24,258 bases of DNA, taken from a virus. The position numbers and the translations under genes were made by a program. The notes beneath the pieces are model-generated. The model was not told the origin of the DNA and made no database searches. It saw nothing but the letters and a program-made list of their open reading frames with translations. The stretch is taken from the IMG/VR virus record IMGVR_UViG_3300006076_000027, positions 1-24,258 of that record, one strand, 5' to 3'. Shown one piece after another: positions 2,799-23,516 of this stretch (position 1 is the stretch's first letter; each line of letters starts with the position of its first letter).

Positions 2799-3890
2799 CT
2801 AAAGCTTTACAAGATCAATAAATATATCATTCAGTAATTGTCCCGTTATGTTGGTTTTTTTTAGCTTTATGTTCTTGCTATTTTTGTCTTTTTTGAATGA
2901 TACTCTACCATCTCTGTCTATATGTATATTGCCATGTATCTCATTCCATAGTTTGTTGGAAAACCATTCTGTGCCTACTATGGCATATAATGCAGCTGCA
3001 GCGTCCCATACACAGTCTCTGTCTTCTATTTTTGCGTGTGAGCCATACATTGCACTTAGTATCATTGCCATTGGACTCTCTGTTTTGTAGTGTTGATACT
3101 GTTTGTATACATCTGTTGGAGAGCAACCGGCATCTTCATCCAGAAGCACAACCGGTACAGGTGAAATATTAATTGTATTTCTTGCTGCTTTGACTGCAGC
3201 TGGATGATATTTTCCAAAAGCCCCAAAATTCATGTCCCATCGGCTCTTGTCTTTTAGTCCTCCCACCAAGACAATCTTGTCTACCTTCTCTCTCACAAGT
3301 TCAATGCCGTGGCAGCGGGTTGTCTCTTTAAATAATTGATCAATATTGTAGCAATTACCAGCGACTACAATAGTAATTTTTCGCTCAGATGACGAGAGTA
3401 TTCTGCAATACATATCTATCGCATCTTCTCTCATATCATCAGTTATCCCATCGTTATTGAATTCTGACACATCTCTCCCCTGCCCTGTATAGAGCTTTGA
3501 TAGTTTTGGATAGTTACTGAAGGGGGATGGCTGCACCCTTGTGTCTTTTCTTTTTGATATACTTATTGGTACATCCTCTCTTCCATAGTAGTAGAGAATA
3601 GAAGATATGGCGATCGATCTCTTGTTGTGTGTATCGATTCCACTTAACGCAACCCCTGTCAACCCTACTTTTCCGAGTTTTTCGAGTGCAATAATTGCTG
3701 ATAATGATTGTGCTATATCGTTGTCTCCAAGCGCGTCGTCATCAAAAATGATCTGTTTAACTGATACAGTTGTGTTCTTCTCTACTTCTTGTTTGTAGCT
3801 TTCTGTTTTTGTGGTCTTGTCGTAGTTAGTGCATGCGCTAAAGATATATACCGCAATGATTAATACAAGCGCTATAATTGATTTTTTCAT
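2799..3890 (-). CDS. Nucleoside-hydrolase-superfamily lipoprotein (phage cargo)
   Basis: Residues 1-20 form a lipoprotein signal with lipobox F-S-A-C20, so the mature protein should be membrane-anchored facing the periplasm. The remainder resembles the inosine-uridine nucleoside hydrolase (IunH) superfamily. IIFDDDALGDNDIA (residues 47-60) matches the calcium-binding D-x-D-x-x-x-D-D loop, with Asn57 where Asp is usual. VVAGNCYNI (175-183) resembles the conserved GPLTNI strand, MNFGAFGKYHPAA carries Asn221, and VWDAAAALY supplies the C-terminal Asp296. Such enzymes cut the N-glycosidic bond of nucleosides, and some relatives act on other ribosides. The ATG is three bases past the stop of the fibre-associated gene with an AGGAGCC ribosome binding site, so it is co-transcribed with the late tail genes. 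Activity is uncertain because of the Asn57 change. Confidence 0.75.
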   Translation of the reverse strand: MKKSIIALVLIIAVYIFSACTNYDKTTKTESYKQEVEKNTTVSVKQIIFDDDALGDNDIAQSLSAIIALEKLGKVGLTGVALSGIDTHNKRSIAISSILYYYGREDVPISISKRKDTRVQPSPFSNYPKLSKLYTGQGRDVSEFNNDGITDDMREDAIDMYCRILSSSERKITIVVAGNCYNIDQLFKETTRCHGIELVREKVDKIVLVGGLKDKSRWDMNFGAFGKYHPAAVKAARNTINISPVPVVLLDEDAGCSPTDVYKQYQHYKTESPMAMILSAMYGSHAKIEDRDCVWDAAAALYAIVGTEWFSNKLWNEIHGNIHIDRDGRVSFKKDKNSKNIKLKKTNITGQLLNDIFIDLVKL

Positions 3891-4499: not shown

Positions 4500-5495
4500 T
4501 TAATATCTTTTGAATTCACATTTGAAGTAGTAATGGTAGTCTCCTACCGTTCTTGTATAGACTTTGCCATCAGTGCCAATTTTTGTTGGAACGAAATACC
4601 CGTTTCTCGTCGTGTCAGTTTCGCACCATGTTGCAGCATTTGGTCTTAGGCCAACGGGAAGCGTACATACCTGTCTATTGTCATATCCACTTGAACCGGA
4701 TGCATTACGTATCGCTGCTCTTATAGCAACTGTGCCGTCTTTATATTTCTTGTACTGACAGTATCCTGTCCAGTCGTTAATCAAAGTTAGATCAATCCAC
4801 CCCGTCTCTGTTTTCATCATTGCGATTTTCATCCATGGGGTCCAAGCATTGTTGTATCGACTTCGCACATACATATCTGCCCCACCATTGTATTGCACAG
4901 CAATCTGCCTGCAGTTCTCTGATGCGGAGTACCATTGTGTGTCGATATGCCAAAAGTGTGCCGTGTCAGGAGTGTTTGCATGATTGGACAAGATATGCAC
5001 ATGATCGGGGGCTGCTTTTGCTACGATGTTTGGATCGATGTTTGATGGTGTAGTTGATTCCGAAAAGAGCGAGTTTTTGTAGGAGCCTATTGTTGCGACG
5101 GGGTCTCCGCTTTTTGTCAAGTTCCCGCTCACTTCTAAGTCGCCCGTGATCGTGCCACCTGTCTTAAGCAGCCAGTCATCCGTATATTGGTACCAATCAT
5201 TAGACGGCGGTGTGGTCGAGTTGCTGTCAACTAAAGATATAAATAAAAATCCGTCTTTTACTACAACATCCCCTTTTGCATATGTTCCCGCATTCCAACT
5301 TCCACGAAAATTACTAAGATCAAGCAGTTTATTGCTCCATCCTAATGCGTCACATATTTTAGGAAATGCTTGAAGAAGCCACGGGTACAATGACTCTGCC
5401 TCCCATGTTCTAAACTCAAGACACTTCTGCCTGTCTGTTACACTTGGTGCTACAAGTGGTGGTTGCTGTGATATATCTGGTATACAATTTGCCAT
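4500..5495 (-). CDS. Receptor-binding tail fibre / tip protein
   Basis: This 331-residue protein is built like a phage adhesin. Residues 63-103 (FRGSWNAGTYAKGD, then a W-Y pair) match the CBM5/12-like chitin or carbohydrate-binding fold. Residues 109-126 (LLKTGGTITGDLEVSGNL) form the repeat-like segment that precedes fibre tips. About 180-225 (HFWHIDTQWYS to WTPWMKI) resemble the pyocin-knob domain found in pyocin and phage fibres. The C-terminal 100 residues form a separate beta-rich head that should contact the host surface. The Cys-containing N-terminus may attach to the distal tail. Host range is probably set here. Ribosome binding site AAAGGAGTAGAAA. Confidence 0.78.
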   Translation of the reverse strand: MANCIPDISQQPPLVAPSVTDRQKCLEFRTWEAESLYPWLLQAFPKICDALGWSNKLLDLSNFRGSWNAGTYAKGDVVVKDGFLFISLVDSNSTTPPSNDWYQYTDDWLLKTGGTITGDLEVSGNLTKSGDPVATIGSYKNSLFSESTTPSNIDPNIVAKAAPDHVHILSNHANTPDTAHFWHIDTQWYSASENCRQIAVQYNGGADMYVRSRYNNAWTPWMKIAMMKTETGWIDLTLINDWTGYCQYKKYKDGTVAIRAAIRNASGSSGYDNRQVCTLPVGLRPNAATWCETDTTRNGYFVPTKIGTDGKVYTRTVGDYHYYFKCEFKRY

Positions 5496-5509
5496 TTTCT
5501 ACTCCTTTT

Positions 5510-6487
5510 TTAGTGTTCTGTGCCCACACATTCAAATCCAATAGTGGTGTATTGTGATCCAAATGTGTAGGTTATATCGTTTGCTATTCCGAGCACGAGC
5601 CCAGACTTAACAGCATCCCTCTCATCAAAAAGATAATAATTAAGCCAGGACCCATGCTTTCCAAACTCTTTTCTGTGCTGATCTACATCTGTCTCATCAA
5701 GCCTAAGCGTTCCTCTCATTCGTGTTTTTCTGTTTGCATGATATATCCCCGTTGCGCGAAGTGTCGGATAATCATAGCTTTGCGTCGGTGTGCTGTCTAT
5801 TATCTGGAAGCCTTTTGCTGCGCATCCGAGATTAAACTCTTTTGCGACAACCATCGTTCCTATTTTGATTGGTAGGTTTGCATCTGACTTTGTGATAGTG
5901 ACTTTGATCTTGTAAAGCTGTTCACATCGCTCTTTTGGTATCCGTATTGCGAAACTGTCTTGTGCAATTGGATCCGGGTTACAACACGAAAAACAGTCAA
6001 AATTATCATCATACGTCATAGTCGCGACACTCTCCAGCTCATTACAGCTATCACAGTCAAACAGATCTGTAATAACGTTACCATTGAAGTCAAAGTATTC
6101 AAAAAAAACCTCTTTTGCGTTTTCTATCCCGCGACCAAGAAGGTGTGTCATTCCTGCAACATTAAACTCTAACTCACATGTATTGCTAAAGATTGATTGA
6201 GAACTGAAGACAGGGTCAAGCATCTTGTACGGGTTTGCACCCTCCCCAAACCAGTCTCGAGAAATTGGCGGGTAACCTTGCGGATTGTCTTTTTTCGCTT
6301 TGTAATTCATTTGAAGTGCTGGAATTTTTACGACATCAAGGAAATTGTATGTAGCATTTTCATCCCACGTAGGTACACTGTCAGCGTCTGCGGTAGAACT
6401 TATAAGGTTCCCAAAAAAAAGCTGTTTATAGATATCGTTGTTGTACATCGTTATAAACTGTGCTCTGGGTATTCTTAGTAGTTTCAT
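5510..6487 (-). CDS. Distal tail / tail tip protein with a possible zinc-ribbon insert
   Basis: This 325-residue protein is encoded directly after the tape measure, where siphophages place distal tail (Dit) and tip proteins. Its ATG overlaps the tape measure stop by four bases (ATGA), so the two are translationally coupled. I do not recognise a definite family. The N-terminal region has a W-x-x-N-A-T-Y-x-x-x-D-V-V-K pattern (residues 41-54) resembling carbohydrate-binding modules of fibres. A C145-x2-C148, C165-x2-C168-C169 pattern looks like a metal-binding ribbon inserted in the middle. The C-terminal 100 residues (R-x-T-R-M-R-G-T-L-R-L then beta strands) could be the ring-forming part. Confidence 0.55.
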   Translation of the reverse strand: MKLLRIPRAQFITMYNNDIYKQLFFGNLISSTADADSVPTWDENATYNFLDVVKIPALQMNYKAKKDNPQGYPPISRDWFGEGANPYKMLDPVFSSQSIFSNTCELEFNVAGMTHLLGRGIENAKEVFFEYFDFNGNVITDLFDCDSCNELESVATMTYDDNFDCFSCCNPDPIAQDSFAIRIPKERCEQLYKIKVTITKSDANLPIKIGTMVVAKEFNLGCAAKGFQIIDSTPTQSYDYPTLRATGIYHANRKTRMRGTLRLDETDVDQHRKEFGKHGSWLNYYLFDERDAVKSGLVLGIANDITYTFGSQYTTIGFECVGTEH

Positions 6488-9400
6488 TGCCCAACCACCT
6501 TGTTGTATTCATTATCTACCGCTATTTGTGTGCGATATGTGTGTTTCTCTATTGCATCAAGCTTTTTGTTTGTCTCTTCCTGCTCCCTTCTAAGTGCTTC
6601 ATTCTCTTTTCTCAACAACTCGAGCCCCTTGACAATATCTGCATTCGGATCTTTTTTTGGGATGTCTTGCACAATTTTGTTTGCTCTTGCTATCTGAAAT
6701 ATTTTCTCTTTGTATGTCAGGCTGCTATCGTCTTTTGTTTGTTTTACCAATTCCCCAAAAGCTGTCTTTGCCTCGCTATAGTCTGCACGGTTAATAGCAT
6801 CTTGGAGTGTATATCCTATTTGGTTGGCTGTTTGAATACCAAAGCTTCTAAGCTCTTTGTTCGCATATGCTTGCAAGTCATACAGCCCTTTTGCAAGATT
6901 CTTCAGACTGCTTTGTACGCCTTGCAGAGCATCACTAAGTTGTTTATATTTTTTTATCGTTTTTTCATCAGCGCCGGCGGCAACTGCTTTGTTAAGCTCA
7001 CTGAGGAAATTTTCTGCAGTTACTCCTGCAAGCCCAGTCTCTTTGATTGCATATGCAAGTCTCTCTTTTGCTATCTTTGCAGAGTTGTCTACCCCACCCC
7101 ATACCCCTTGCATCTCAAAGATTGACACCTTTGTATCAAGCAGCTGTTTTCGATGTGCCCTCATGGCATCATCAAGCTCTTTGAGTGCGGAATATTGTTT
7201 TTTATAGTTTTCAAACAGTTTTTTTGATGCTTCACTGTTCACATCGGTTAGTTCTTTGAGATTTTTCTCTACGCTACTTAAGATGTTGTCTATCGTCAAC
7301 GCATCGAGCCCGGTCTCTTTTGTAGTTAGTCTGAGTTTGTATTTGGCAATACTGACAGCATCCGCTCCAAGCTGTTTTTTGAAGTTTGCCAAGTCCACAA
7401 GCCTGTTGTTTAAGCTCTCCATAGCGGATGCGGCACCGGATGCGGCACTTTCTGTGTTGCCATAGTAACTTGCGAAATCTCCCATATTGGACATCAATGT
7501 TCCATATAGGCCCTCTAATTCCTGAAGTTTCGCTCTTGCGGCATCAAGCTCCGGAGAGTGAAGTCTGTCGTAGTCTATGGTAGCACCGTTTTCGTTTTGG
7601 GTTGATACGCTCTCAGCGTGCTCTGATCCTGTAGCGATTGCCTTGACCGTCTTATGAAGCGAATTCCCAAATGCCACCGATGCCTGGCTTGCCTTGTTTT
7701 GTGACGCAATGAGGTAGTTGTTGTTTTTTACCTGCTGGTTGATCACATCCGCTTGTTTTTTTGCCATGTCGACTTTGGCTTCATACTCACCGTAGGCTAC
7801 CTGCAGGCTGATCTCTCCAGCCTGCACTTTGGCAGCAAGTTCTGTCTCCATTGTAGCAATCTGTGCTCTTAGCGCAACGATCTTCGCCTCAGTCTCTTTC
7901 TTTAGTGCAATAAACTGCGCCTTGGATGCAGGCAGTGCGACATTGTAGGTGGCCAGTGCGGTCTGAAGCATGTTTTGGTAGTACTGCTTCTGTTCTGAAC
8001 TGCTCAGCATCCCAATGAACGCATCCTGCGCCGTTTTCCATTCACTTAGTCCGCCGGCTGCATCTATGAGGCCTTGTGACTGATTGAAGGTCTCAACACG
8101 CACACCAAGTGCGCCAAGCGAGGTCGCCACCGTTTCAAAACCTACAGACACACGCGCTATAGTACCGGTGATCTCCTCTCCGGCTGTTGCAAACCTCTGT
8201 AGATCGTAGTAGAGTTTCGGATCTGCTGTAAACTGCAGTCCATCTGTGATTGCGTTGTTGAGTTCCTGTGTAAGTGCCTGGTTGAGTGCTTTTGCCTGCT
8301 CCTCTATGCTGAGATCCTTGAAGTTGATCTTTCCGAGACTTACAACATAATCGTCGATCCGCGCTTTCAGTTTCGACGTATCAAACCCAAGCATATCCAG
8401 CCCGTCAAATGCAGACTGCAGTCCGTGGTTGAATGCTTCGCCTATCTGTTTTTTAACACCGTCTGGCAGATCCTGCAGACTCTCTTTGATCGACTCGCTT
8501 GTAAATATACCCAAAAACGACGAGGACTTTTTGATCGACTTGTATCCGTCTGCCTCGACACCCTGCACAAAACCGCTCACCGCCTGGTCGTAAAAATGTA
8601 TACCGGAACCGATAAGCTCCGTTGATGACGCAAAGAGAACCCCGCCAAGCACCGAAGATGTTTTGGGTGTGAAGGTGCTGCCGCCAAGGTCAAGTCCCGC
8701 GGTTGCATTGAGTGCTTGGATAAGATTGTTATCCATGCTTTCGAGGTGCTGCAGCATCGATTTGGTGTGGGTTAACTGCGGCTGCATATACTCTTTGAGT
8801 GTGCCGACGATCTCCTTGGTGCCTTTGGAGTCAAATTCACTGCGCCCTGCGGCCGCTGCAATTTCTGCCTCGGAGAGTGTCTGACTCCACATCGCTCCCC
8901 ACATCTTGATAGCTGTACCAGAACCGGGGAGCAATGCGTCTGCTGCAGAGGCGATCAGATCACCTGTGGCGTTGCTCACCGCAAACGGGTCATTGCCTTT
9001 AAAAGACGATGCGAAGCTTTGCAGCCCGTCCCACAGACTTCCAAACAGCTTCTCTCCAATGCTGCCTGTCTCTATATCGAACGCATCCGCAAGGCGCTCC
9101 TTGAAGCTGTCCGTAGAGCGGTTCATCTTTTTGATTTCTGCTTCGTATATCTCAGCCAGCTCAGACTGTTTTAGATACTTGCCAAGCGATGCAAGCTTGT
9201 CTCCAAGTTCTCCCATCCTGACAAGCTCCTCTCCGCCGGCATTATACAGTCTTGCCTTGCGAAGCTCTGCTCTTGCGTTTTTGAGTGCATCTTCATATTT
9301 CTTTGCCGCAGCGGCAGCCTCTTTGAGCGCTTTGGTGTCTTTTCTAATGCCGGCAGTCGTGCCGCCTCCCTTAACACGTGTATGAAGCAGCGCCTCATTG

Positions 9401-10683
9401 GCTTTTTTGGCGACATGCACACCCTTCGTAAGGGTCGTGTAGGTTTTGTTCATCTCCTCTACACTGCTTTTGAGCTTGCTTTGTGCCCAGTCTGTGTTGG
9501 CAAGCTTAAATGTCTCAACCTTTGCCTCTTTGATGCTTGAGACATACTCTCCTATATCCAAATTGACCTTGCCAAACGGATTGTCTATCCCGACACGATC
9601 AAAGACACCGCCAAGCGCACCCGATACGGAATTGATCATCTTGGATAAAAGTCCAAGTATATCGTTCACCATATCATAGAACGCATTTCCGATGGCATCG
9701 ACCGACGCCTTAAAAGCGTTATGCAGCCCTGCGGTCATCGTATACCACGCCTGCCCTATGGTCTCTATGCCGCTGTCTATGCTTGTTACGATCGTCCAAA
9801 ACGCCACATCAAGCACATTGAACACAAGTTTAATCCCCAAGAACCCCTGCGCGATATCATCGACATGCGCAGAGATGAAGCTTGCCGCATCAGAGACCAT
9901 GTTTGCCAGCCCCTCTGTCGCACCGGTCGCCTCATCAATGCCGGCAATCACACCGAGAAAGGCGTTGTGCGCCTGTGTCATCGCCTGAGCTACGGTGATA
10001 GGCATCTTTGCAAACTCTGCGTCTATCGCACTGCCCTGCTTCTGTATCGCCTCAAGCACTGTCTGTGTTGTCAGCTTTCCCTCTGCACCGAGTGCACGCA
10101 GCTGACCGATGCTCACACCCATACCGTCTGCGATCGCCTGGGCGAGACGAGGGGTCTGCTCCATGATAGAGTTCAGCTCTTCTCCTCTTAGCGTTCCTGA
10201 CGCAAGTCCCTGAGAGAGCTGTACCAGTGCCGCATTGGCTGATTCAGCGCTTGATCCCGAGATGGTGAGTGTCTTTGTGAGCGTTTTTGTGATACCTATG
10301 AGGTCTTTATGTGTATAGGCTGTATCTTTGGCGCTGCGGGCAATCTGCGTGTAGAGCCCGGCAACATCCGCCAAGCCTACGCGCGCACTCTGGGACACAT
10401 TGAACAGTTCAGCCTGTACGGCATTGAGCTGCGCTGTTGAATGGGTCACGAGTCCGATACGCGCATGGAGATTTTTCATCTCGTCTGCAACGTGGATCAG
10501 CTGCTTTGTCATGTGGACTATGTAGCCAAATGCAAATCCTTTCGCTACGGTTTTGGCAAGCTTTTTGATGTTTCCGTCTGTTTCCTTTACTTTTCTATCA
10601 AGATTGTCAAAAGAGTTGCGTACCGCAGTGACCTTACCGGTTTTTGCATCAACGCTGAGTGTGATGGTAAGGTTTTTTTTCAC
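6484..10683 (-). CDS. Tail tape measure protein
   Basis: At 1,399 residues this is the largest protein here, as expected for the ruler that sets tail length and is ejected with DNA. Residues about 70-260 match the conserved tape-measure N-terminal domain, with the runs SARVGLADVAGLYTQIARSA and GLASGTLRGEELNSIMEQTP. Hydrophobic segments around residues 250-350 may insert in the host membrane. Long coiled coils follow, including a charged KKYEDALKNARAELRKARL region, and the C-terminus ends in another coiled coil. The start is GTG with ribosome binding site AGGAGCGAAACA, overlapping the chaperone frame's stop as GTGA. The length implies a tail of roughly 200 nm by the usual 0.15 nm per residue rule, which is an inference. 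Confidence 0.93.
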   Translation of the reverse strand: MKKNLTITLSVDAKTGKVTAVRNSFDNLDRKVKETDGNIKKLAKTVAKGFAFGYIVHMTKQLIHVADEMKNLHARIGLVTHSTAQLNAVQAELFNVSQSARVGLADVAGLYTQIARSAKDTAYTHKDLIGITKTLTKTLTISGSSAESANAALVQLSQGLASGTLRGEELNSIMEQTPRLAQAIADGMGVSIGQLRALGAEGKLTTQTVLEAIQKQGSAIDAEFAKMPITVAQAMTQAHNAFLGVIAGIDEATGATEGLANMVSDAASFISAHVDDIAQGFLGIKLVFNVLDVAFWTIVTSIDSGIETIGQAWYTMTAGLHNAFKASVDAIGNAFYDMVNDILGLLSKMINSVSGALGGVFDRVGIDNPFGKVNLDIGEYVSSIKEAKVETFKLANTDWAQSKLKSSVEEMNKTYTTLTKGVHVAKKANEALLHTRVKGGGTTAGIRKDTKALKEAAAAAKKYEDALKNARAELRKARLYNAGGEELVRMGELGDKLASLGKYLKQSELAEIYEAEIKKMNRSTDSFKERLADAFDIETGSIGEKLFGSLWDGLQSFASSFKGNDPFAVSNATGDLIASAADALLPGSGTAIKMWGAMWSQTLSEAEIAAAAGRSEFDSKGTKEIVGTLKEYMQPQLTHTKSMLQHLESMDNNLIQALNATAGLDLGGSTFTPKTSSVLGGVLFASSTELIGSGIHFYDQAVSGFVQGVEADGYKSIKKSSSFLGIFTSESIKESLQDLPDGVKKQIGEAFNHGLQSAFDGLDMLGFDTSKLKARIDDYVVSLGKINFKDLSIEEQAKALNQALTQELNNAITDGLQFTADPKLYYDLQRFATAGEEITGTIARVSVGFETVATSLGALGVRVETFNQSQGLIDAAGGLSEWKTAQDAFIGMLSSSEQKQYYQNMLQTALATYNVALPASKAQFIALKKETEAKIVALRAQIATMETELAAKVQAGEISLQVAYGEYEAKVDMAKKQADVINQQVKNNNYLIASQNKASQASVAFGNSLHKTVKAIATGSEHAESVSTQNENGATIDYDRLHSPELDAARAKLQELEGLYGTLMSNMGDFASYYGNTESAASGAASAMESLNNRLVDLANFKKQLGADAVSIAKYKLRLTTKETGLDALTIDNILSSVEKNLKELTDVNSEASKKLFENYKKQYSALKELDDAMRAHRKQLLDTKVSIFEMQGVWGGVDNSAKIAKERLAYAIKETGLAGVTAENFLSELNKAVAAGADEKTIKKYKQLSDALQGVQSSLKNLAKGLYDLQAYANKELRSFGIQTANQIGYTLQDAINRADYSEAKTAFGELVKQTKDDSSLTYKEKIFQIARANKIVQDIPKKDPNADIVKGLELLRKENEALRREQEETNKKLDAIEKHTYRTQIAVDNEYNKVVGQ

Positions 10684-10982
10684 TGTTTCGCTCCTCTCTC
10701 TATCATCTGTATGCGTTCAAGCGTGTCGATATCATCCATGCCGAATTTTTCGGCATAGCGAAAAACGACATCCGCATTGATCGTTGTAGAAAATCCGTTG
10801 TGCTCGCGCGCGTTCGCCCAGACCCTAATGTGCCACATGCTCCAGCTGTCGTCTAAAAAGACGATACCTTTCTTCTCATAATACGCTCGCTGCTGCGCCG
10901 CAGAGTGTACGGGGTGGTCAGGGTCGATGTGCGGCACATCCCCCCGTATCAGCTGTGACGCATAGGCTACGAGCGCTTCTTC
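10680..10982 (-). CDS. Tail assembly chaperone, T-like frameshift extension
   Basis: This frame has no convincing start of its own. It is open in phase from the slippery site at 10,982 to the TGA at 10,680, giving 100 codons. A GTG at 10,937 is available, but the upstream bases (CGGGGGGAT) are a poor ribosome binding site. The frame is reached from the G-like gene by a -1 shift, as in lambda G/GT. The sequence includes HSAAQQRAYYEKKG and DSWSMWHIRVWANA segments. The predicted fusion is 281 residues against 185 for the unshifted product. The T extension would recruit the tail tube protein to the tape measure during assembly. Confidence 0.75.
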   Translation of the reverse strand, partial: EEALVAYASQLIRGDVPHIDPDHPVHSAAQQRAYYEKKGIVFLDDSWSMWHIRVWANAREHNGFSTTINADVVFRYAEKFGMDDIDTLERIQMIERGAKQ

Positions 10983-11524
10983 TTTTTTTGCTTTGCCTCC
11001 TGTATCAGTCTGCCGACCTCTTCGATGATGATGGAGTATCGGATACCGAAGTTCTGCAGTGCTTTGACAAGTGCCTCTTTCTTCTCGTTGTTTTCTACAC
11101 GCACGTCAAAGACTGTTTTGGCGATCTCCTCTTGCATCTTTGCCTGCGCCTCCGTATAGGATGCAAGATCGTACTGCTCATTGATCTTGGCAAGCGCATC
11201 TTCGGCTTCTCGAAGCTTTGCTCTGAGCTTTTTGCGCTTGGCTCTGAGGCGTTTTCTCTCCTCTTTCTCCGTTGCGTCAAGATCGCCGATCTCTTCATTG
11301 ATGTCGGCGATATCTTCAGAGAGTCTGGTAACTTTGGCCGAGAGTGCTCTTGCCTCCTCGCCGGCATCAAAAAGCGTTTTGTACTCCGCCTCGATCTCTT
11401 CTTTGAATCGCTCTATGGCCGCCTTGTCTTCATCGTTAAGCTCAAGCTTGACGGTGATGGGGTAGACGCTCACCTTCTCTTCTGTTTTGATCTTGATGTC
11501 GATCTTCTCATACAGTGCTATCAT
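10967..11524 (-). CDS. Tail assembly chaperone, G-like product
   Basis: This 185-residue, highly charged protein has a long coiled coil (about residues 35-135) and a Lys-rich end. It lies between the tail tube and tape measure genes, where siphophages encode the chaperone that coats the tape measure before tube polymerisation. ATG has ribosome binding site AAGGAGCAAGAGG. The last codons pass over an A-rich slippery site before the TAG, so a fraction of ribosomes should continue into the following frame. The family was assigned by position, coiled coil and frameshift design rather than by sequence similarity. Confidence 0.75.
   Translation of the reverse strand: MIALYEKIDIKIKTEEKVSVYPITVKLELNDEDKAAIERFKEEIEAEYKTLFDAGEEARALSAKVTRLSEDIADINEEIGDLDATEKEERKRLRAKRKKLRAKLREAEDALAKINEQYDLASYTEAQAKMQEEIAKTVFDVRVENNEKKEALVKALQNFGIRYSIIIEEVGRLIQEAKQKKKKRS
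10982..11001 (-). promoter_or_regulatory. Programmed -1 frameshift signal (A AAA AAG)
   Basis: In the G-like frame the codons read CAA AAA AAG, giving the heptamer A AAA AAG (10,988-10,982), the same type used by E. coli dnaX. An internal Shine-Dalgarno-like AGGAGG (11,001-10,996) lies seven bases upstream, a known stimulator of -1 slippage. A shift here joins the 181 preceding codons to 100 codons of the next frame with no stop between. The zero-frame stop follows 13 bases after the heptamer. Confidence 0.85.
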
Positions 11525-11535
11525 CCTCTTGCTCC

Positions 11536-12471
11536 TTATGCGGTGTAGGCACGGATCTCAAAGTTGTCGTCACCGTTAACTTTGCGCAGTTCAAATGTAC
11601 GCTCCAGTGCGATACGCCCCTCGTTTTTTGGTTTTTTGTGTTCGATCACGACACATTTTGGTGCTATGATTTCCCATTTTTTTACTCCGTTTTTGTCAAA
11701 AAGCGGGATAACAAAGTTAAACTCTGTGCCGTTTTGCAGATCTGCAAAGCTTTGTTGGTTGTCGATGCTGTCCATTATCGACACGGTCATCTCAGGCTTG
11801 ATATCTTTTGTCCAGCTCTCACCTGGACAGGTGTCTTTTGCAGTACCGATACTGGCACCGAGTTTGAGTTCTACTTTTGTAAAGTGTGCCTGATTGCCGT
11901 TAACCAGATACGCTGTGCAGTTCTTTGTCATAAATACCTGATCAAATGCCGGCGTATCCGGTATCGTATTGTCAGGATCGGCAGCAGCCAGTCTTACCTG
12001 CTCTTTGAACATCCCGTCAAATTCAAAACTGATCTCTGCCGGATTGCCGACTTCGCATGTGATTGTAAAGTCACCTCTCTCTCCGTATGCGCGCGTGATC
12101 TCCCGCTCCGAAACTTGCATAAAGGAAGCTGTTTTTTTGTTCGATGTGGTATAGCTGTAGCTCACGCCGCCGGTGATCGCTGTACTCTCCATACCGCATG
12201 CGACAAGTGCGGCAGAGATAAGGGTATGATCGTTTGGCAGTTTCATTGTTGCCTTTACAGGCATCGTGGCAAACTCTGTGATGACTGTTGTCTCTTTTGA
12301 GCCGTGATGCCCGCTTTCTGGGTCGAAGTCTGTTTTGTCAAACTCCGGTACCCACATGTCGCTGCCTTTCTCGATCGGCAGTGCTGTTGAAGGCTCCTCG
12401 TAGACCCCCGGTGTTGTCTCCAGCCCGATCAGCACCGCGCTTCTGTCTGCAATATACTTTCCTGCACCCAT
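11536..12471 (-). CDS. Major tail tube protein
   Basis: This 311-residue protein precedes the tail chaperone pair and tape measure. It begins with a phage tail-tube pattern (MGAGKYIADRSAVLIGLETTPG, reading as assembly arm, then a first strand and the T-x-G turn). The rest is beta-rich with alternating charged strands, including a T-L-I-S-A-A-L-V-A-C-G stretch near residue 85 that is typical of TTP_3/tail tube folds. It would form the stacked rings of the tail lumen. Ribosome binding site AGGAGAGATAG. No sheath gene accompanies it, consistent with a flexible non-contractile tail. Confidence 0.8.
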   Translation of the reverse strand: MGAGKYIADRSAVLIGLETTPGVYEEPSTALPIEKGSDMWVPEFDKTDFDPESGHHGSKETTVITEFATMPVKATMKLPNDHTLISAALVACGMESTAITGGVSYSYTTSNKKTASFMQVSEREITRAYGERGDFTITCEVGNPAEISFEFDGMFKEQVRLAAADPDNTIPDTPAFDQVFMTKNCTAYLVNGNQAHFTKVELKLGASIGTAKDTCPGESWTKDIKPEMTVSIMDSIDNQQSFADLQNGTEFNFVIPLFDKNGVKKWEIIAPKCVVIEHKKPKNEGRIALERTFELRKVNGDDNFEIRAYTA

Positions 12472-12489
12472 CTATCTCTCCTTTTTTGT

Positions 12490-12603
12490 CTATTTTGGAT
12501 TTGCTGCAAAGAATCCTTTACCCACAAAAAAAGGTTTGTAAGATTCTCTTAGCTCTAAACTGTTCCCATTCTTATCGTAAACTTTGATATATTTTTCTCT
12601 CAT
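12490..12603 (-). CDS. Small conserved-looking 37-residue protein
   Basis: A short frame of 37 residues (MREKYIKVYDKNGNSLELRE at the start) fits between the lysis genes and tail tube, with TTTAGGAGAGG as ribosome binding site. Two adjacent ATGs exist. The second (12,603) has the better spacing. It ends FFAANPK just before the tube gene. Function unknown. Its fit to the operon and its ribosome binding site support it as a real gene. Confidence 0.6.
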   Translation of the reverse strand: MREKYIKVYDKNGNSLELRESYKPFFVGKGFFAANPK

Positions 12604-12612
12604 CATCCTCTC

Positions 12613-12831
12613 CTAAAAAAAGAGTGTTTTGAGTGTCTTGACGACACCGATTTGTTCAAGCATATAGAAGCTGCCCACCCCTACAAGCCACCACCGGATG
12701 TTCAGAAGGATGCGTTTGAGATCTGTCAGATCACTGTGCAGTGACGCTACCTTTCCCTCAACATGTCTGATACGCTGGTCATGCTGTGCTACATTGACTT
12801 CCACTTTGACCAGTCTCTCGTTAGTATCCAC
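12613..12831 (-). CDS. Coiled-coil/membrane lysis accessory (XhlA-like)
   Basis: This 72-residue protein has an N-terminal coiled coil (about residues 1-45, heptad-like V-x-V-x-V-x-Q-H-x-x-R-I) and one C-terminal membrane segment (about 46-65, WWLVGVGSFYMLEQIGVV). That is the layout of XhlA-type hemolysin/holin-accessory proteins, which act with a holin at the inner membrane. The GTG start overlaps the holin stop by eleven bases, so it is probably coupled. No endolysin gene is found beside it, so the enzyme must be elsewhere or supplied otherwise. Confidence 0.6.
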   Translation of the reverse strand: MDTNERLVKVEVNVAQHDQRIRHVEGKVASLHSDLTDLKRILLNIRWWLVGVGSFYMLEQIGVVKTLKTLFF

Positions 12832-13237
12832 GCTCCACCCCCTTGACCTTCTCTACCGTACGGAACGCGCCAAACCCGAGCATGCCGCCAAGCAGCGCCA
12901 TCAGCGTACCGATGTCAAGTGTCGGCATCTGCATTACTTTGCCGCTTGCCGCAAGCGCGGTGTAGATGAGTGGCTGCGCAATATAGTTGTATGCCAATGC
13001 ACTCCCGCTGATCCATCCGATAAAGGGTCTCCACCCCGCGACAAAGATACTTTTATGCTGTGCCTCTGTATTGTTGACATCCATCTGTGCCATCTTCAGC
13101 TTGGCTTCCATCTGATCGAGCGCCAGCATGATCTTCGCCTGCTCGGCAGGATCTTTTATCTTCTCACCGGTAATCGCTTCTCTTAGGCTCGTAAACAGCG
13201 TGCCGACATCACCAAGCGAAAAGTCAACCATTCCCAT
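12821..13237 (-). CDS. Holin, 3-TM superfamily (GTA/Phage holin)
   Basis: This 138-residue protein has a charged helical N-terminus (about 1-60) ending in a T-E-A-Q-H-K-S-I-F-V-A-G-W-R-P-F run. The WRP at residues 69-71 is a hallmark of the PF11351-type holin family. Hydrophobic segments follow at about 71-96 and 108-126. It would oligomerise in the inner membrane and release the lytic enzyme. Ribosome binding site AAAGGAGAAAAT. It leads directly into the coiled-coil accessory gene. Confidence 0.8.
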   Translation of the reverse strand: MGMVDFSLGDVGTLFTSLREAITGEKIKDPAEQAKIMLALDQMEAKLKMAQMDVNNTEAQHKSIFVAGWRPFIGWISGSALAYNYIAQPLIYTALAASGKVMQMPTLDIGTLMALLGGMLGFGAFRTVEKVKGVERGY

Positions 13238-13247
13238 ATTTTCTCCT

Positions 13248-13559
13248 TTATTGTATGGCTTCAGCCTCTATCTCTATCAAAAAGAGATCCATCAGCCTCG
13301 CCTGATCTCTTAGGTCTATGTTTGAGTGCAGCACCTTGAGGCACAGCTTGCTTTGTGCCTGAAGCCTTAGCAGTGCCTCAAAGAGCTCCGTGTTTTTATC
13401 TACATCAGGCTGCACCACGATCCCTACAGTGACCTTGTAGTTGATGCCTCCATTTGCTGTGCGATTTGCAACAAAGATCTTGTAGTCATCCTGGTGGTAC
13501 TGTGCAACCACCTGCGCGATCGCCTCTTTTGCCGCCGCAAATCCTACACAGCACGACAC
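13248..13559 (-). CDS. Head-tail connector / tail terminator candidate
   Basis: This 103-residue protein begins at GTG with ribosome binding site AGGAGGCATCAA and overlaps the preceding gene by 16 bases. Its composition is alternating alpha/beta with no membrane segment, as in tail terminator and head-tail joining proteins (lambda U/gp17-like), which siphophages place between capsid and tail tube. I do not recognise a specific family, so the call is from position. The Cys pair at residues 3-4 is not obviously a metal site. Confidence 0.45.
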   Translation of the reverse strand: MSCCVGFAAAKEAIAQVVAQYHQDDYKIFVANRTANGGINYKVTVGIVVQPDVDKNTELFEALLRLQAQSKLCLKVLHSNIDLRDQARLMDLFLIEIEAEAIQ

Positions 13560-13900
13560 TTGATGCCTCCTGTATCTACACTCTGTGTCTCTTCATCCAT
13601 AAACGGGATTGACTCGGAACGCTCCATCCAGTACTCCTGAAAGACCTCCAGATCACCAAAGGTCTGGAGTGTCTCGTCATACTCGTTTGCTCTTTGCTGT
13701 ATGCGCTGCCACAGCAGCGGTGCAAGATAGTAGATCGCACGGCAGCTTACCGCCTCTATCTCATCGAAATTATCATCCGCATCATCAAACACCTTTCCCT
13801 TGAAGTCACGGTTTGCACGCTTAAGGTGCGGCATGATCTCCTCATCTTTCAGCTTCTCAAGCGTGAGACGTTCGCGTATGTCGGAGACCTGCGTGAGCAT
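13544..13900 (-). CDS. Head-tail connector protein (gp6-like position)
   Basis: This 118-residue, mostly helical protein follows the major capsid gene by one base. Small helical proteins in this place (HK97 gp6, SPP1 gp15 type) form the adaptor ring below the portal. The sequence has RERLTLEKLKDEEIMPHLKRA near the N-terminus and a Tyr/Trp-containing helix (IYYLAPLLWQRIQQRANEY), features compatible with that fold. Ribosome binding site GGAGGCGTAAG. Specific family not confirmed. Confidence 0.5.
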   Translation of the reverse strand: MLTQVSDIRERLTLEKLKDEEIMPHLKRANRDFKGKVFDDADDNFDEIEAVSCRAIYYLAPLLWQRIQQRANEYDETLQTFGDLEVFQEYWMERSESIPFMDEETQSVDTGGIKCRAV

Positions 13901-13901
13901 C

Positions 13902-14846
13902 TTACGCCTCCGTCACGACTGCGACATATTTCTTGATGTCAAACTCATAGTCAGGTCTCACGACAAACTTGTAGCAAAGCGACGAGATCTCGTTGGAGTA
14001 CCAGCGCTTTCTGTCAATCGCTCTTGAGAGACCAAATACCATATTCTTGTCATGTGTGCCCAGGAATGTTCCGGCGGGGATACCCTTTTGCGGCTTAAGC
14101 TTTCTTCCCTCAAACTCCAGCATTTCGCCTGACTTGAGCACACCAAGCGCTTTGTAGTCTTTGGCGAGCATGCGCACATAGGCGCTGTAGTCTGTTTTGC
14201 TCAGATAGATGGACATATCATCAGTAACATCTTCGTGCGCGACATCACATACCTTCTGCAGCGCGCGCTCAACAAACTGTCCGCGTGTCTCACCGTTTGC
14301 GCTATCTTGTGTGAGCGTTGCTTTTTTGGTGTCCGAAGACTCTGCAGCAACGGTCAGCCACCCCTTGGCAAGCTCATTAAACGGTGCCGTTGCAGCGGTA
14401 TTGTCTGCAATACCGATCCAGCCAAGATAGACCAGATCATTGCGGAAGGCAGTCGTTGCTGCCTCAAACTGCTCTTTCTCGAAGTTCGGATTGTCCTGGT
14501 TGTCATCGAGTGCCTCATCGGTGATGTTGATCTGCAGTGTTACACCGTTTGTCATATTGAGTCTTGCACCCACCACGCCAAGCTTTTTGAGCTGATCGTC
14601 TGAGAGTGCCTTGCCGGCAACATGCCGCACCAGCATCCCCTTGGAAGTGCTCAGCGCACTTCTGTCTTTGAGCAGCTTCTTGGTAATGTCCACCGTGATA
14701 TGCTTGAGCAGCCCCGCATCATCGACAATGGCATTGGCGAACGCTCTACCCTGCTTGGGCGTAAGCTCTCCGTTGAGCGCGACATCTGTAGCGGTAACCG
14801 CACCGGTTTTGAGGATCTCGCTTAGATCAAGATAGTTTTCTGGCAT
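13902..14846 (-). CDS. Major capsid protein
   Basis: This 314-residue protein lies directly after the protease/scaffold gene, overlapping its stop by one base (TAATG). It has an N-terminal arm (MPENYLDLSEILKTG...) with a helical region, a central beta-rich core, and an acidic C-terminal domain, consistent with an HK97-fold capsid protein. Position between maturation protease and head-tail connectors is the strongest evidence. The start is MPENY with a GGAGTC ribosome binding site upstream. Confidence 0.85.
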   Translation of the reverse strand: MPENYLDLSEILKTGAVTATDVALNGELTPKQGRAFANAIVDDAGLLKHITVDITKKLLKDRSALSTSKGMLVRHVAGKALSDDQLKKLGVVGARLNMTNGVTLQINITDEALDDNQDNPNFEKEQFEAATTAFRNDLVYLGWIGIADNTAATAPFNELAKGWLTVAAESSDTKKATLTQDSANGETRGQFVERALQKVCDVAHEDVTDDMSIYLSKTDYSAYVRMLAKDYKALGVLKSGEMLEFEGRKLKPQKGIPAGTFLGTHDKNMVFGLSRAIDRKRWYSNEISSLCYKFVVRPDYEFDIKKYVAVVTEA

Positions 14847-15205
14847 TACATGACTCCTTTTGTTTCATCTTCTTTTGTTTGTGATTTTGTGGTTTTGGTC
14901 TGCTTGGATTTTTGCACCTCTTCTTTGACCTCCTCTGTCACTTCTGTGAGCTTATCAAGCTGCTCACCTTGCTCCTTGAGCTGATTTTCGAGCGAGGCGT
15001 TGCTCTCTTGAAGTGTTTTGTTCTCCTCTTTGAGTGCCTCGTTTTCACTCTTTAGCAGCGCAATCTGCGTCTTCGCATCGTCAACGGACTTCTGCAGGGC
15101 ATCTACCTTTTGGATGTGCTCCCCGAGTGCTGCTTCCGCCTCTTTGGCAGCAGCCTTGAGCTTACCCTTGACCACTTCGCCGAAATCCTCTACCTTTTTT
15201 GACAT
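14846..15205 (-). CDS. Nested in-frame scaffold protein
   Basis: An ATG at 15,205 (Met196 of the protease) is preceded by AAAAAGGAGAAGAT, a consensus ribosome binding site with good spacing. It begins MSKKVEDFGE and gives a 119-residue, highly charged coiled-coil protein, the usual form of phage scaffolding protein. Phage lambda uses the same design (C protease with nested scaffold Nu3). The internal site would supply scaffold in excess over the protease fusion. The rest of the sequence is shared with the long form. Confidence 0.7.
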   Translation of the reverse strand: MSKKVEDFGEVVKGKLKAAAKEAEAALGEHIQKVDALQKSVDDAKTQIALLKSENEALKEENKTLQESNASLENQLKEQGEQLDKLTEVTEEVKEEVQKSKQTKTTKSQTKEDETKGVM

Positions 15206-15790
15206 ATCTTCTCCTTTTTCTGATTTTTTGATGACACCGCCAAAGTCAAACCACACATCGCTGACAGCATCGGCGAATGCCTCAAACAGCTTCTTTAGCG
15301 ATCCGTCAGACTTCTCCACCGGATGCCGCTGCGCTACACCCGCCATCGATATACCGCCGATCTCTCCGGATTTGGCAAGCTGCTTGAGAGATTCATCCTC
15401 CAGTTTGATCGCAACCGCCCAGCTTCCCTCGGGCTCATTTGGGAAAGTTGGGTCATTGCTTTTGACAATCCAGCTCTCAGCGACAAACGCCGCTTCGCTT
15501 CTGAAGCTGTGCTCTACATCGACATTGTTGGCATTAAGCGACTTCATAAAGTCGTATGCCGCCTTTTCGATCTCCTCTTTGGTAGCGAAGTCACCCTGAG
15601 AGTCCACCTGATCGGGCGCATAGACGATACCGTATATCACCCCCTTCTCCTCATCGGTCTTTTTGATACTGATCATGCTCTCATAGTTGCCGTCGTTGGC
15701 TGCAGATTTATAGATCACCTGCTTGCCGTTCGCGCCGGCTTTGACCAGAGAGATATGCGTGATCGAGATATCGGTCAGCTTGTTTGGCAT
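14846..15790 (-). CDS. XkdF-like capsid maturation protease with scaffold domain
   Basis: This protein is 314 residues if it starts at the ATG at 15,790, which has ribosome binding site AAAGGAGCATC. A frame extension to 15,829 would put the start upstream of the -10 of the promoter at 15,820, so I reject it. Residues 1-185 match the XkdF-type phage serine protease: a G-I-V-Y-A-P-D-x-V-D-S-Q-G-D run at 54-67, His94 in VEHSF and Ser148 in GGISMAG, the likely catalytic pair. Residues 196-314 form a charged coiled coil that is the scaffold. The protease cuts scaffold and itself during prohead maturation. It is the first gene of the late operon and leads into the capsid gene. Confidence 0.82.
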   Translation of the reverse strand: MPNKLTDISITHISLVKAGANGKQVIYKSAANDGNYESMISIKKTDEEKGVIYGIVYAPDQVDSQGDFATKEEIEKAAYDFMKSLNANNVDVEHSFRSEAAFVAESWIVKSNDPTFPNEPEGSWAVAIKLEDESLKQLAKSGEIGGISMAGVAQRHPVEKSDGSLKKLFEAFADAVSDVWFDFGGVIKKSEKGEDMSKKVEDFGEVVKGKLKAAAKEAEAALGEHIQKVDALQKSVDDAKTQIALLKSENEALKEENKTLQESNASLENQLKEQGEQLDKLTEVTEEVKEEVQKSKQTKTTKSQTKEDETKGVM

Positions 15791-15819
15791 GATGCTCCTT
15801 TGTCGTTTTGGAATGCGGC

Positions 15820-15848
15820 AGTATAACACCGCCTAAACGCTGTATCAA
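15820..15848 (-). promoter_or_regulatory. Late promoter TTGATA-N17-TATACT
   Basis: On the minus strand TTGATA and TATACT are separated by exactly 17 bases, matching five of six consensus positions at each hexamer. The predicted start is about 23 bases upstream of the protease ATG. It reads into the whole leftward structural operon. It is strong enough for sigma70-type recognition, so repression in the lysogen must act here or upstream. Confidence 0.8.
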
Positions 15849-15938
15849 ACCTACATAATCGCGCTTCTTCATGCCACTATATGCCTTGGTTTTACCCCCT
15901 GTTTTTGCGTACACTTGTCGGCAAAAACAAGGCAGCAA

Positions 15939-17009
15939 ATGAAAAGAAAGCTCGTCATAAAAAGCGGCAGCGGCAGCCGGCAGAAGATCGTCGGTGAGGA
16001 TGCGCTTATAGAGGATGTAAAACTGGTAGAGCCCTTTTTGGACTACAGCGCGCTGCGCACGCTATACGCCTCAAACGTCTATCATCAGCGCTCACTCAAG
16101 CTCAAGGCCATGCTGCTTAGCCACATCGAAGAGAGTACGCTAAGCGAACATCTGCCCGACGGGGTTACTGCAAAAAAGTTCCTATACAAGTTTATGCTCA
16201 ACGCAGAGACCTACGGCTCGGCATTCTTTGAGCGAAGCGCCACGATCGCAGGCAGATTCAAACTCTACAATCTTGGCAGCTACCATGCACGGGTGGACAA
16301 AGAAGATACGATCTATCAGCTGGTAGGCACAGAGCAGATACCGCTTGAGGGTGCGCACTTTATGTATGACACCATCCTCTCCGATTTTTACGGAGAACCC
16401 GACTACACAGCAGCGATCAACCAGATCGTCACCATCTACAAAGCAGACCGCTACAACGAAGCCTTTTTTGACAATGGCGCCAAACCCGATCACGCCATCA
16501 TCTTTGAAGACAGCGATCCTTCGGATGAGCAGCTAAACGCCATCACGGAGTACTACCGCAAAGAGTTTCGAGGCTACAAAAATGCACACAAAACCCTCAT
16601 CCTCACCACAGGTGAAGGCAACGGGGAGACAAAACCGAAAATTCGCATAGAGGAGCTTGGCAAGGTCGAGGATCTCAGTTTTGAGAAGCTGAAGAAAGTA
16701 GGAAGAGACGAGATCATCGCCGCACACGGTGTGCCGCCGCGCCTTGTGGGGGTGGTCGACCCCAACGCGCTTGGCGGAGGCGGAGAGCTGATCAGCCAGC
16801 TGCATATGTTCAACGAGATCTCCATCAAACCCAAAATGGCGATGATCGAGGAGTTTTTCGGCGCGCACGGCATCGCGCTCAAGCTCAAAGAGTTCGATGC
16901 CACCGCGTTCAAGGACGATGCGGATGTGGTCACGGGGCTGGTGAGTGCGGGCATCCTCACCCCAGCGGAGGCAAAATCGGTCATGGGATGGAGTCAAAGT
17001 GGCAATTAA
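15939..17009 (+). CDS. Portal protein
   Basis: This is a portal of the P2 gpQ/PBSX type, 356 residues from the ATG at 15,939. A TTG eight codons earlier is in frame but has no ribosome binding site, whereas ATG follows AAGG with good spacing. Recognisable features are the N-terminal DYSALRTLYASNVYHQRSLKLKA region, the Y-G-S-A-F-F-E motif near residue 97, the DAFYGEP-like D-F-Y-G-E-P stretch, and the VPPRLVGV and GGGGELISQLHMFNE motifs (about 260-290). It would form the dodecameric DNA channel at the capsid vertex and dock the terminase. It is transcribed opposite to the capsid operon, from the same short intergenic region. Confidence 0.88.
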   Translation: MKRKLVIKSGSGSRQKIVGEDALIEDVKLVEPFLDYSALRTLYASNVYHQRSLKLKAMLLSHIEESTLSEHLPDGVTAKKFLYKFMLNAETYGSAFFERSATIAGRFKLYNLGSYHARVDKEDTIYQLVGTEQIPLEGAHFMYDTILSDFYGEPDYTAAINQIVTIYKADRYNEAFFDNGAKPDHAIIFEDSDPSDEQLNAITEYYRKEFRGYKNAHKTLILTTGEGNGETKPKIRIEELGKVEDLSFEKLKKVGRDEIIAAHGVPPRLVGVVDPNALGGGGELISQLHMFNEISIKPKMAMIEEFFGAHGIALKLKEFDATAFKDDADVVTGLVSAGILTPAEAKSVMGWSQSGN

Positions 17010-18609
17010 AAAAGAGAAAAAGCAGCGCATCCTGATGCTGGTCGATGCCGGCATTCCCGCGGCAGAGGTCGCCAAAGATGAGGGGGTAAGCAAAGGCACC
17101 ATCTACGCATGGCTGCGCAAACGCAAAGCACAAGGAAAAGAGGACACCCCCGGTACCATAGCACAGATCAAAAAACAGCTGCAGGTACTCTCTAGGCGCA
17201 AACCCACCGAAGCGGTCAGCCGCAAGATCGCCATGCTCACCGCCGCACTATCACGGCTGGAACGCAGCCACGACAAAGCCCAAAAGCGCAAAGCCCAAAG
17301 CCTTGTCAAGCCATTCATTACCGATATCACCTCCAACGAGGAGGCAAACACCCTGCGCAGCCGTGCGCTGCTTGGTGAGTATGGCGAACTCTACGCCTAC
17401 CAAAGAGAGTTTCTCTCCTGCAACGACCAGTTCAGGCTGGTACTCAAGTCCAGACAGATAGGCTTCTCCTATGTCGCCGCACTCGATGCACTCATCGCAG
17501 CGGTGGCGGGCAGAAACCAGCTCTTTCTCTCTGCATCCGAAGAGCAGGCACTTATTTTGATGCGTTATGTCGAACACTGGGCGGGCAAGATGGGCATTGT
17601 CTTTAGCACGGACAAAGACAACGAAAAGCGCCTTAGCAACGGCGCCATCATCAAAGCGATGGCAAACAACTTCAGAACCGTACAGGGCTTTACCGGGGAC
17701 ATCTGGATGGACGAGTTCGCCTGGTACCAAAACCCCAAAAAGATATGGCTTGCCTTTGTGCCGAGTATCGGTGCGGTACAGGGACGCTTTACGGTCATGT
17801 CCACCCCGTTTGAGGAGAACTCGCTCTTTTACGATCTGTGTACCGACGAAGAGAAGTACTACATGTTTACCCGCTTTCGTGTCGACATCTACCGTGCGAT
17901 GGAGGACGGGCTGCGCTTTGATCTGGAGACGATGCGCGCACTCTTTGATGCAGACACCTGGGCGAGTGCCTACGAGTGCCAGTTTATCGACGACGAGAGT
18001 GCGCTCTTTAGTATCGCGCTGATCAAAAGCTGTGTCGATCCCTCACTGCGCTACTACTCGCCGCCAAAAAGCGCTGTACTCTTCAGCGGATATGACATCG
18101 GTCGAAGCGCACACCGCTCCGCGCTGGCGGCGCTGCTGCTGACAGAGCACACCAAGCGCTATGAGCTGTGCAAGATGGAGGTGCTCGCCAAAGCTTCGTT
18201 CGATGAGCAGCGGCTGCTTATAGACCAGTTCATGACCCTGCATCCGCTCGCACAGATACGCATCGACCGCACCGGTATCGGTATGGATCTTGCCGAGGGG
18301 ATGACCAAGCGCTACAAAGCGCGCGCCAAAGGCGTACACTTCACCGCCACAGCCAAAGAGGCGATGGCGCTCAACCTCAAAAAGATGTTTGAAGATCAGA
18401 GCATTGTCATCCCCAACGATCCGCTGCTCATTGCCGACATTCACGCCATCAAGCGAAAAGCGGGCGCAAGAGGGTTTTTGTACGACTCCAAACAGAACGA
18501 ACACGGACACGCCGACCGCTTCTGGGCGCTTGCGCTTGCGGCAAGCCATGTCGAGGCGATAGAGCGCAAAAAAAGCAAAAAAGGAAGAGGCATTGTCATC
18601 AGAAACTAA
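16999..18609 (+). CDS. Terminase large subunit with N-terminal HTH
   Basis: Starting at GTG 16,999 with GGAG ribosome binding site, overlapping the portal stop by 11 bases, this protein is 536 residues. Residues 19-42 form a recruited HTH (AAEVAKDEGVSKGTIYAWLR), as in gpP-type terminases that carry a small-subunit-like DNA-binding head. The ATPase has a degenerate Walker A K150-S-R-Q-I-G-F-S157 and Walker B DIWMDE (234-239). The C-terminal nuclease carries acidic residues D366 (SGYDIGRS), D423 (RIDRTGIG) and D506 (GHADRFW). Together these drive DNA packaging and cleavage. No separate small terminase gene is seen nearby. Confidence 0.93.
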   Translation: MAIKKEKKQRILMLVDAGIPAAEVAKDEGVSKGTIYAWLRKRKAQGKEDTPGTIAQIKKQLQVLSRRKPTEAVSRKIAMLTAALSRLERSHDKAQKRKAQSLVKPFITDITSNEEANTLRSRALLGEYGELYAYQREFLSCNDQFRLVLKSRQIGFSYVAALDALIAAVAGRNQLFLSASEEQALILMRYVEHWAGKMGIVFSTDKDNEKRLSNGAIIKAMANNFRTVQGFTGDIWMDEFAWYQNPKKIWLAFVPSIGAVQGRFTVMSTPFEENSLFYDLCTDEEKYYMFTRFRVDIYRAMEDGLRFDLETMRALFDADTWASAYECQFIDDESALFSIALIKSCVDPSLRYYSPPKSAVLFSGYDIGRSAHRSALAALLLTEHTKRYELCKMEVLAKASFDEQRLLIDQFMTLHPLAQIRIDRTGIGMDLAEGMTKRYKARAKGVHFTATAKEAMALNLKKMFEDQSIVIPNDPLLIADIHAIKRKAGARGFLYDSKQNEHGHADRFWALALAASHVEAIERKKSKKGRGIVIRN

Positions 18610-21806: not shown

Positions 21807-22143
21807 ACTGCTTCCCCTCGTTCGCAGCGATCAGCAGCGCATCGTAAAGCGTGCCGTCAAACTCGTAGAGCTTCTCTTTGGTCTCTTTGCCGTCAAGCGC
21901 ATAGACCTTTAGGTGTACCGGCTCTTCAAACACAGGATCCTCTTTGAAGTTTTTGGCGATGACCTCTGCATCACATGGCTGGTAAAACATATGTATCAGC
22001 CTGCCATCCTCGTCTTCTTGTGTGCCGGCTACAGGGTCGTAGCGCCTATTGTTTATCCGTTTCTTGAATATGCCTGCCGGCTCTCCCCCATCAATATAGA
22101 GCAGTACCAACCTACCCAGCTTCAGTGTCGCGTTTCTCATCAT
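21796..22143 (-). CDS. Head-tail connector candidate
   Basis: A 115-residue protein lies between the gpF-like head gene and the HK97-gp10-like gene. It begins MMRNATLKLGRLVLLYIDGG. The second ATG (22,140) has better ribosome binding site spacing than the first. It overlaps the previous gene by 32 bases. The predicted beta-rich, acidic fold fits connector/stopper proteins, but I do not recognise a family. Inference comes from position. Confidence 0.5.
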   Translation of the reverse strand: MMRNATLKLGRLVLLYIDGGEPAGIFKKRINNRRYDPVAGTQEDEDGRLIHMFYQPCDAEVIAKNFKEDPVFEEPVHLKVYALDGKETKEKLYEFDGTLYDALLIAANEGKQYDV

Positions 22144-23353: not shown

Positions 23354-23516
23354 ACTCTTTGATCTCCTCTGTATCCATCAGGTTAAACACCGGTATCTCT
23401 TTGGTGCGCCACACATAGTGGCATGCTTTGCAGCGTCGAATGCGTTCGACGATGGGGCCGCTCTTGTCCGTATCGGTCACATAGGTCTTTGGGGTCGCAC
23501 ACTTTGGGCAGATCAT
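23310..23516 (-). CDS. NrdR-like zinc-ribbon protein
   Basis: This 68-residue protein has C3-x2-C6 and C29-x2-C32 with the pattern M-x-C-P-x-C...T-x-V-x-D...R-I-R-R-C, which resembles the N-terminal zinc ribbon of NrdR but lacks the ATP-cone. Its ATG overlaps the GemA-like gene's stop (ATGA). A phage regulator role, like P2 Ogr or Mu Com, is plausible. Confidence 0.7.
   Translation of the reverse strand: MICPKCATPKTYVTDTDKSGPIVERIRRCKACHYVWRTKEIPVFNLMDTEEIKEYETYIAQSLTEVKG

Follow-up and report, generated by a model that had tools for sequence, protein, structure and literature searches.

The heptamer of the lambda G/GT frameshift is G GGA AAG. PMC5009743 sets out the arrangement that is the hallmark of G/GT genes. 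In lambda and its counterparts in other long-tailed phages, as far as they are summarised in PMC5009743 and PMC10885494 (after Xu et al. 2004), the genes follow one another in the order tail tube, G, T and tape measure. Towards the 3' end of G, a -1 shift gives a long fusion in a minority of ribosomes, and T has no start of its own. An undetectable sequence relation to known chaperones is usual for G/T genes (PMC5009743). Enterobacter phage F20 (T1-like; JN672684) likewise carries overlapping G and -1 T frames directly ahead of the tape measure gene, and its G stop directly follows the heptamer, A AAA AAC. Outside the tail genes, Escherichia coli dnaX uses A AAA AAG in a cassette with a Shine-Dalgarno (SD)-like element 10 nt upstream and a 3' hairpin. 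The presence of a single tRNA-Lys renders this heptamer slip-prone in E. coli.

Here we analysed a stretch of 24,258 nt (IMG/VR virus record IMGVR_UViG_3300006076_000027, positions 1-24,258; hereafter the window). Two forms of the tail assembly chaperone, one long and one short, are very probably produced in this virus of sulfur-oxidising Campylobacterota by a -1 slip at A AAA AAG. The kind of mechanism is known and is well supported at this locus, whereas the protein families match no described family and the site is conserved across a group of related viruses.

Gene order and reading frames

The tail tube, G, T and tape measure genes follow one another on the minus strand of the window (Table 1). 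The preliminary description had likened this order to that of lambda, and the profile matches on both sides of G and T bear it out. The two overlapping ORFs sit directly between the tape measure gene, whose product matched PF20155 (TMP_3; E 2e-61) and many PHROG tape-measure families (best E 1.8e-82), and the tube gene, whose product matched phrog_290 (tail; E 2e-6) and, just below the 27-bit Pfam cut-off, PF18906 (Phage_tube_2; E 9.7e-6, 25.8 bits).

The 3' end of G reads GAG GCA AAG CAA AAA AAG AAG AAG CGC TCG TAG. It contains A AAA AAG four codons ahead of the stop, and this is the sole canonical X XXY YYZ heptamer in the zero frame of the whole gene. No stop interrupts the -1 frame from 11105 until 10682-10680, with 39 codons before the heptamer and 102 from the heptamer on, and the stop there overlaps the GTG of the tape measure gene. 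The earliest possible T-frame start in the window is GTG 10937, 17 codons past the heptamer. The predicted G-T fusion has 281 aa, and the shift would thus lengthen the product, whereas the dnaX shift shortens it. The preliminary description had placed A AAA AAG at 10988-10982 just before the stop of a G-like frame, with AGGAGG seven bases upstream, and had described a -1 frame open to the tape measure gene without a good start and products of 185 and 281 residues; the sequence and its ORFs confirmed each of these positions and sizes.

Table 1. Features of the G-T locus and of the hairpin found in related loci
Feature	Position	Strand	Basis or remark
Putative major tail tube gene, 311 aa	11536..12471	-	PF18906 Phage_tube_2 and phrog_290
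Ribosome-binding site of G, AAGGAG	11532..11537	-	7 nt before G ATG; sequence
G, zero-frame tail-assembly-chaperone-like ORF, 185 aa	10967..11524	-	ATG 11524; sequence, AlphaFold2, homologues
SD-like element AGGAGG	10996..11001	-	7 nt upstream of heptamer; anti-SD pairing -10.3 kcal/mol
Slippery heptamer A AAA AAG	10982..10988	-	Zero frame of G; kept in relatives
Zero-frame stop of G, TAG	10967..10969	-	12 nt after heptamer
T, -1-frame coding stretch, 102 codons, without usable start	10680..10988	-	Heptamer to stop; homologues, AlphaFold2
Tape measure protein gene	6484..10683	-	GTG start 10683 overlaps T stop
Covarying hairpin	L028 3671-3724; L033 4544-4597; L044 1814-1867	-	Compensatory changes

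Conservation of the slippery site

Direct single-protein searches of viral_contigs for G, T, tube and tape measure gave nothing usable, with one marginal match for the tube, and searches of the same kind found no relatives of G or T among named phages. The family was reached via a terminase search, which led to five viral contigs with T homologues and an identical gene order. A T profile search then added Sulfurovum and Sulfurimonas genomes and another viral contig, and three more T loci came from searching 399 genomes of that order. In this way, 12 distinct T-homologous loci were picked by protein homology and not by the heptamer. G homologues were 20-58% identical, and T homologues in this set 32-75%, except for that of the distant L068 (18%).

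In all 12 of these loci, G carries a canonical zero-frame heptamer and T occupies the -1 frame. The heptamer was A AAA AAG alone in 10 of them, as opposed to the G GGA AAG of lambda, and G GGA AAC alone in L066. In L067 (minus strand), G GGA AAC is followed nine bases on by A AAA AAG (1483 and 1492 of the reverse complement), and this tandem is possibly an intermediate in site turnover. More distant relatives have the terminase in common and small similarity in T. Because these loci were first picked by carrying a heptamer, they were kept out of the chance estimate, and the tape-measure-positive set was used as the denominator: of its 14 records, 13 had an in-frame heptamer at the equivalent place, the exception being L014. 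The distant sites include A AAA AAG, G GGA AAG (L040), A AAA AAA (L011 and L049) and T TTT TTG (L030 and L084, the latter being the completed L021 record and having a contractile-type tail). Alignment with homologues, proposed in the preliminary description as a check, therefore found the heptamer either kept or swapped for another canonical one, with frame and place unchanged.

Of 275 other long ORFs of these loci, one had A AAA AAG within its last 10 codons and 11 had one of 15 canonical heptamers there; since related sequences are non-independent trials, no exact probability is claimed, and binomial values, which take account of neither relatedness nor selection, were set aside. Moreover, A-AAA-AAG was the spelling of Lys-Lys at 19 of 21 A-type sites, versus 7 of the 43 Lys-Lys pairs in the rest of G (Fisher 1e-8, uncorrected for relatedness). 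A recurring A AAT TTA overlap was judged ordinary, as the gene downstream has an in-frame ATG of its own immediately ahead of the overlap.

In L014 (4020-4130, minus strand), G and T share a frame, with a TGA between them. Compared with L017, it has apparently one extra A in the upstream A run, a one-base difference that may be a natural indel or else an error in the sequencing. This apparent indel, together with the homopolymer at the junction, might suggest that the split itself arose from sequencing error or gene decay. That reading is contradicted by the recurrence of the -1 relation, with differing heptamers, across unrelated assemblies (24 distinct loci), and by purifying selection on T in its own frame (dN/dS 0.06-0.13, close pairs), and we regard it as vanishingly improbable.

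An A run also raises the question of slippage by RNA polymerase, by which some mRNAs would have an altered A count and be translated normally into the fusion. Transcriptional slippage is known, for example in Thermus dnaX, and the run comprises 7 A in the window and 8 A in several relatives. However, the A or T runs for which such slippage has been described in bacteria are about 9 long (PMC5009743), and the runs here are 6 to 8, with just 6 A in L005, L067 and L050 and the frame relation unchanged. In L066 (GGGAAAC) and L040 (GGGAAAG) there is no A run, and the frame relation is again unchanged, so relatives keep it without a slippage-prone run. The SD-like element at the site and, in one subclade, a covarying hairpin also count against slippage by the polymerase, which is very unlikely.

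Access to the T frame

When the relatives were aligned, the region of T homology began at the heptamer, ahead of any start codon. A stop immediately before the heptamer closes the T frame in L047 and L054, and in both the frame is open only from the heptamer on, indicating that T can be entered only by slipping there. The first T-frame start in nearly all relatives lies 9-93 codons after the heptamer at a position that is not conserved; L012 is an exception, with a start codon 25 codons upstream.

Separate translation of T, by reinitiation after the G stop or from an internal start, could draw on the SD-like element, which lies ahead of the G stop as in coupled genes, and on the GTG 17 codons past the heptamer, which is present in the window and a few relatives. 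However, conserved T residues precede the variable first start, and T begun at GTG 10937 would lose the first helix predicted by AlphaFold (residues 2-15, from the heptamer Lys-Lys onward). In addition, no T-frame start in the window lies within initiation distance of AGGAGG, and the GGGGGG ahead of GTG 10937 is spaced only 2 nt from it. An independently expressed downstream frame, against which the preliminary description had wished to see its reading checked, is thus highly improbable.

Stop codon beside the heptamer

The G stop directly abuts the heptamer in 14 of the 24 distinct loci, and in all 14 it is UAG or UAA, never UGA. This adjacency is a feature of the relatives. The distance from heptamer to stop is 12 nt in the window and 0 nt in most relatives, in contrast to published means of 26 nt (SEA-PHAGES) and 36 nt (Xu set) (PMC10885494). 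In E. coli, a stop directly after the heptamer competes with slippage when release factor is raised, according to work cited in PMC4373837. It is conceivable, though we think it unlikely, that the stop occupies the A site during the slip, that the supply of RF1 tunes the G:GT ratio, that SD-like element and hairpin are interchangeable across subclades and that the lineage of the window moved its stop 12 nt downstream. A simpler reason for the bias towards UAG and UAA is that a Val codon of T, GTA, contributes the UA of the stop.

Putative stimulatory elements and host tRNA

Mean anti-SD pairing across the 24 loci peaks at the offset of AGGAGG, and of the individual loci the window (-10.3 kcal/mol) and L066 (-11.0 kcal/mol) pair most strongly. 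Conserved Glu-Ala residues could be part of the source of this signal. The 7-nt spacing in the window is perhaps suboptimal, because SD-like elements have been reported at 9-14 nt for -1 shifts (and at 3 nt for +1 shifts; PMC5009743), and it may fit the low frequency of shifting that is expected of G/GT.

Downstream of the window heptamer, no hairpin reached significance (z 0.98 over 45 nt and 0.13 over 75 nt). In contrast, a strong hairpin lies within about 8 nt downstream of the heptamer in L028, L033 and L044 (z -4.1 to -5.4 over 45 nt), and a weaker one in L012. Five of its pairs are changed on both sides among these four loci. This difference suggests that subclades rely on different stimulators, SD pairing in one and a hairpin in another, and that stimulators have been exchanged. 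In the subclade of L028, L033 and L044, the SD-like element is weak.

One Sulfurovum genome carrying a relative has two tRNA-Lys genes, both UUU, and no tRNA-Lys CUU was present among the 33 typed of its 34 tRNA matches. The locus resembles dnaX in its identical heptamer, in an SD-like element upstream and in the single tRNA-Lys kind of the host genome examined. The dnaX-type heptamer named in the preliminary description stood, whereas the 7-nt SD spacing and the 3' region without a significant hairpin depart from the dnaX cassette.

Predicted folds and family searches

The AlphaFold2 model of G (mean pLDDT 90.8) has an N-terminal beta-hairpin, a long antiparallel coiled coil and C-terminal helices, and that of T is also a confident fold (mean pLDDT 93.1). 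Neither protein matched named chaperone families in PHROGs or Pfam, T had no match in NCBIfam, and PDB fold searches with both models returned nothing at E 0.001. Weak viral fold matches to the T model had E values of 0.3-1.3, and several of them are named tape measure chaperone. The T product of F20 was among the best, though weak, structural matches (TM 0.54), while profile comparison of the two T products detected no sequence similarity and the F20 heptamer differs from that of the window. The VIA-align matches are of a sort that helical hairpins and coiled coils often give. Judged by sequence, G and T have no detectable relation to described G/T families and apparently represent undescribed protein families.

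Proposed mechanism

We consider it highly likely that the locus encodes a lambda-type G/GT programmed frameshift that yields G and G-T, probably with stimulation by the SD-like element. The majority of ribosomes would translate G and terminate at its TAG. A minority would shift back by one base on A AAA AAG, where tRNA-Lys would re-pair with AAA, and would read on in the -1 frame to complete G-T. Pairing of the anti-SD sequence with AGGAGG probably stimulates this slip in the window phage. By analogy with lambda, G would coat the tape measure protein and the T part of G-T would recruit tail-tube subunits, and the shift frequency would set the G:GT ratio. The sequences show the anatomy of the locus, the frame relation, the lack of another start for T, the conservation and swapping of the slippery site and the purifying selection on T; the slip itself, its efficiency and the chaperone function are inferred.

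The locus adds apparently undescribed G/T families to the phages of environmental Campylobacterota (Sulfurovum and Sulfurimonas), in which a gene caller would overlook that T belongs to a fusion. Members of the group differ in heptamer, in the distance to the stop and in stimulator but share one conserved function, and this natural series is a useful test set for the mechanism of frameshifting.

Other features of the phage genome

Portal and terminase genes (15915-18609, plus strand) are opposed to the capsid and tail genes (4500-15829, minus strand), and this inversion is kept in the relatives fetched. A tyrosine integrase gene and genes for Mu F-like and GemA-like proteins were found on the minus strand (987-1973, 22112-23353 and 23513-23938), and the phage thus combines a Mu-like head module with a site-specific integrase. 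Near the integrase end, a 363-aa protein with a lipoprotein-like leader is encoded at 2799-3890 (minus strand), possibly as a cargo gene. It had no Pfam match, and by eye it resembles nucleoside hydrolases.
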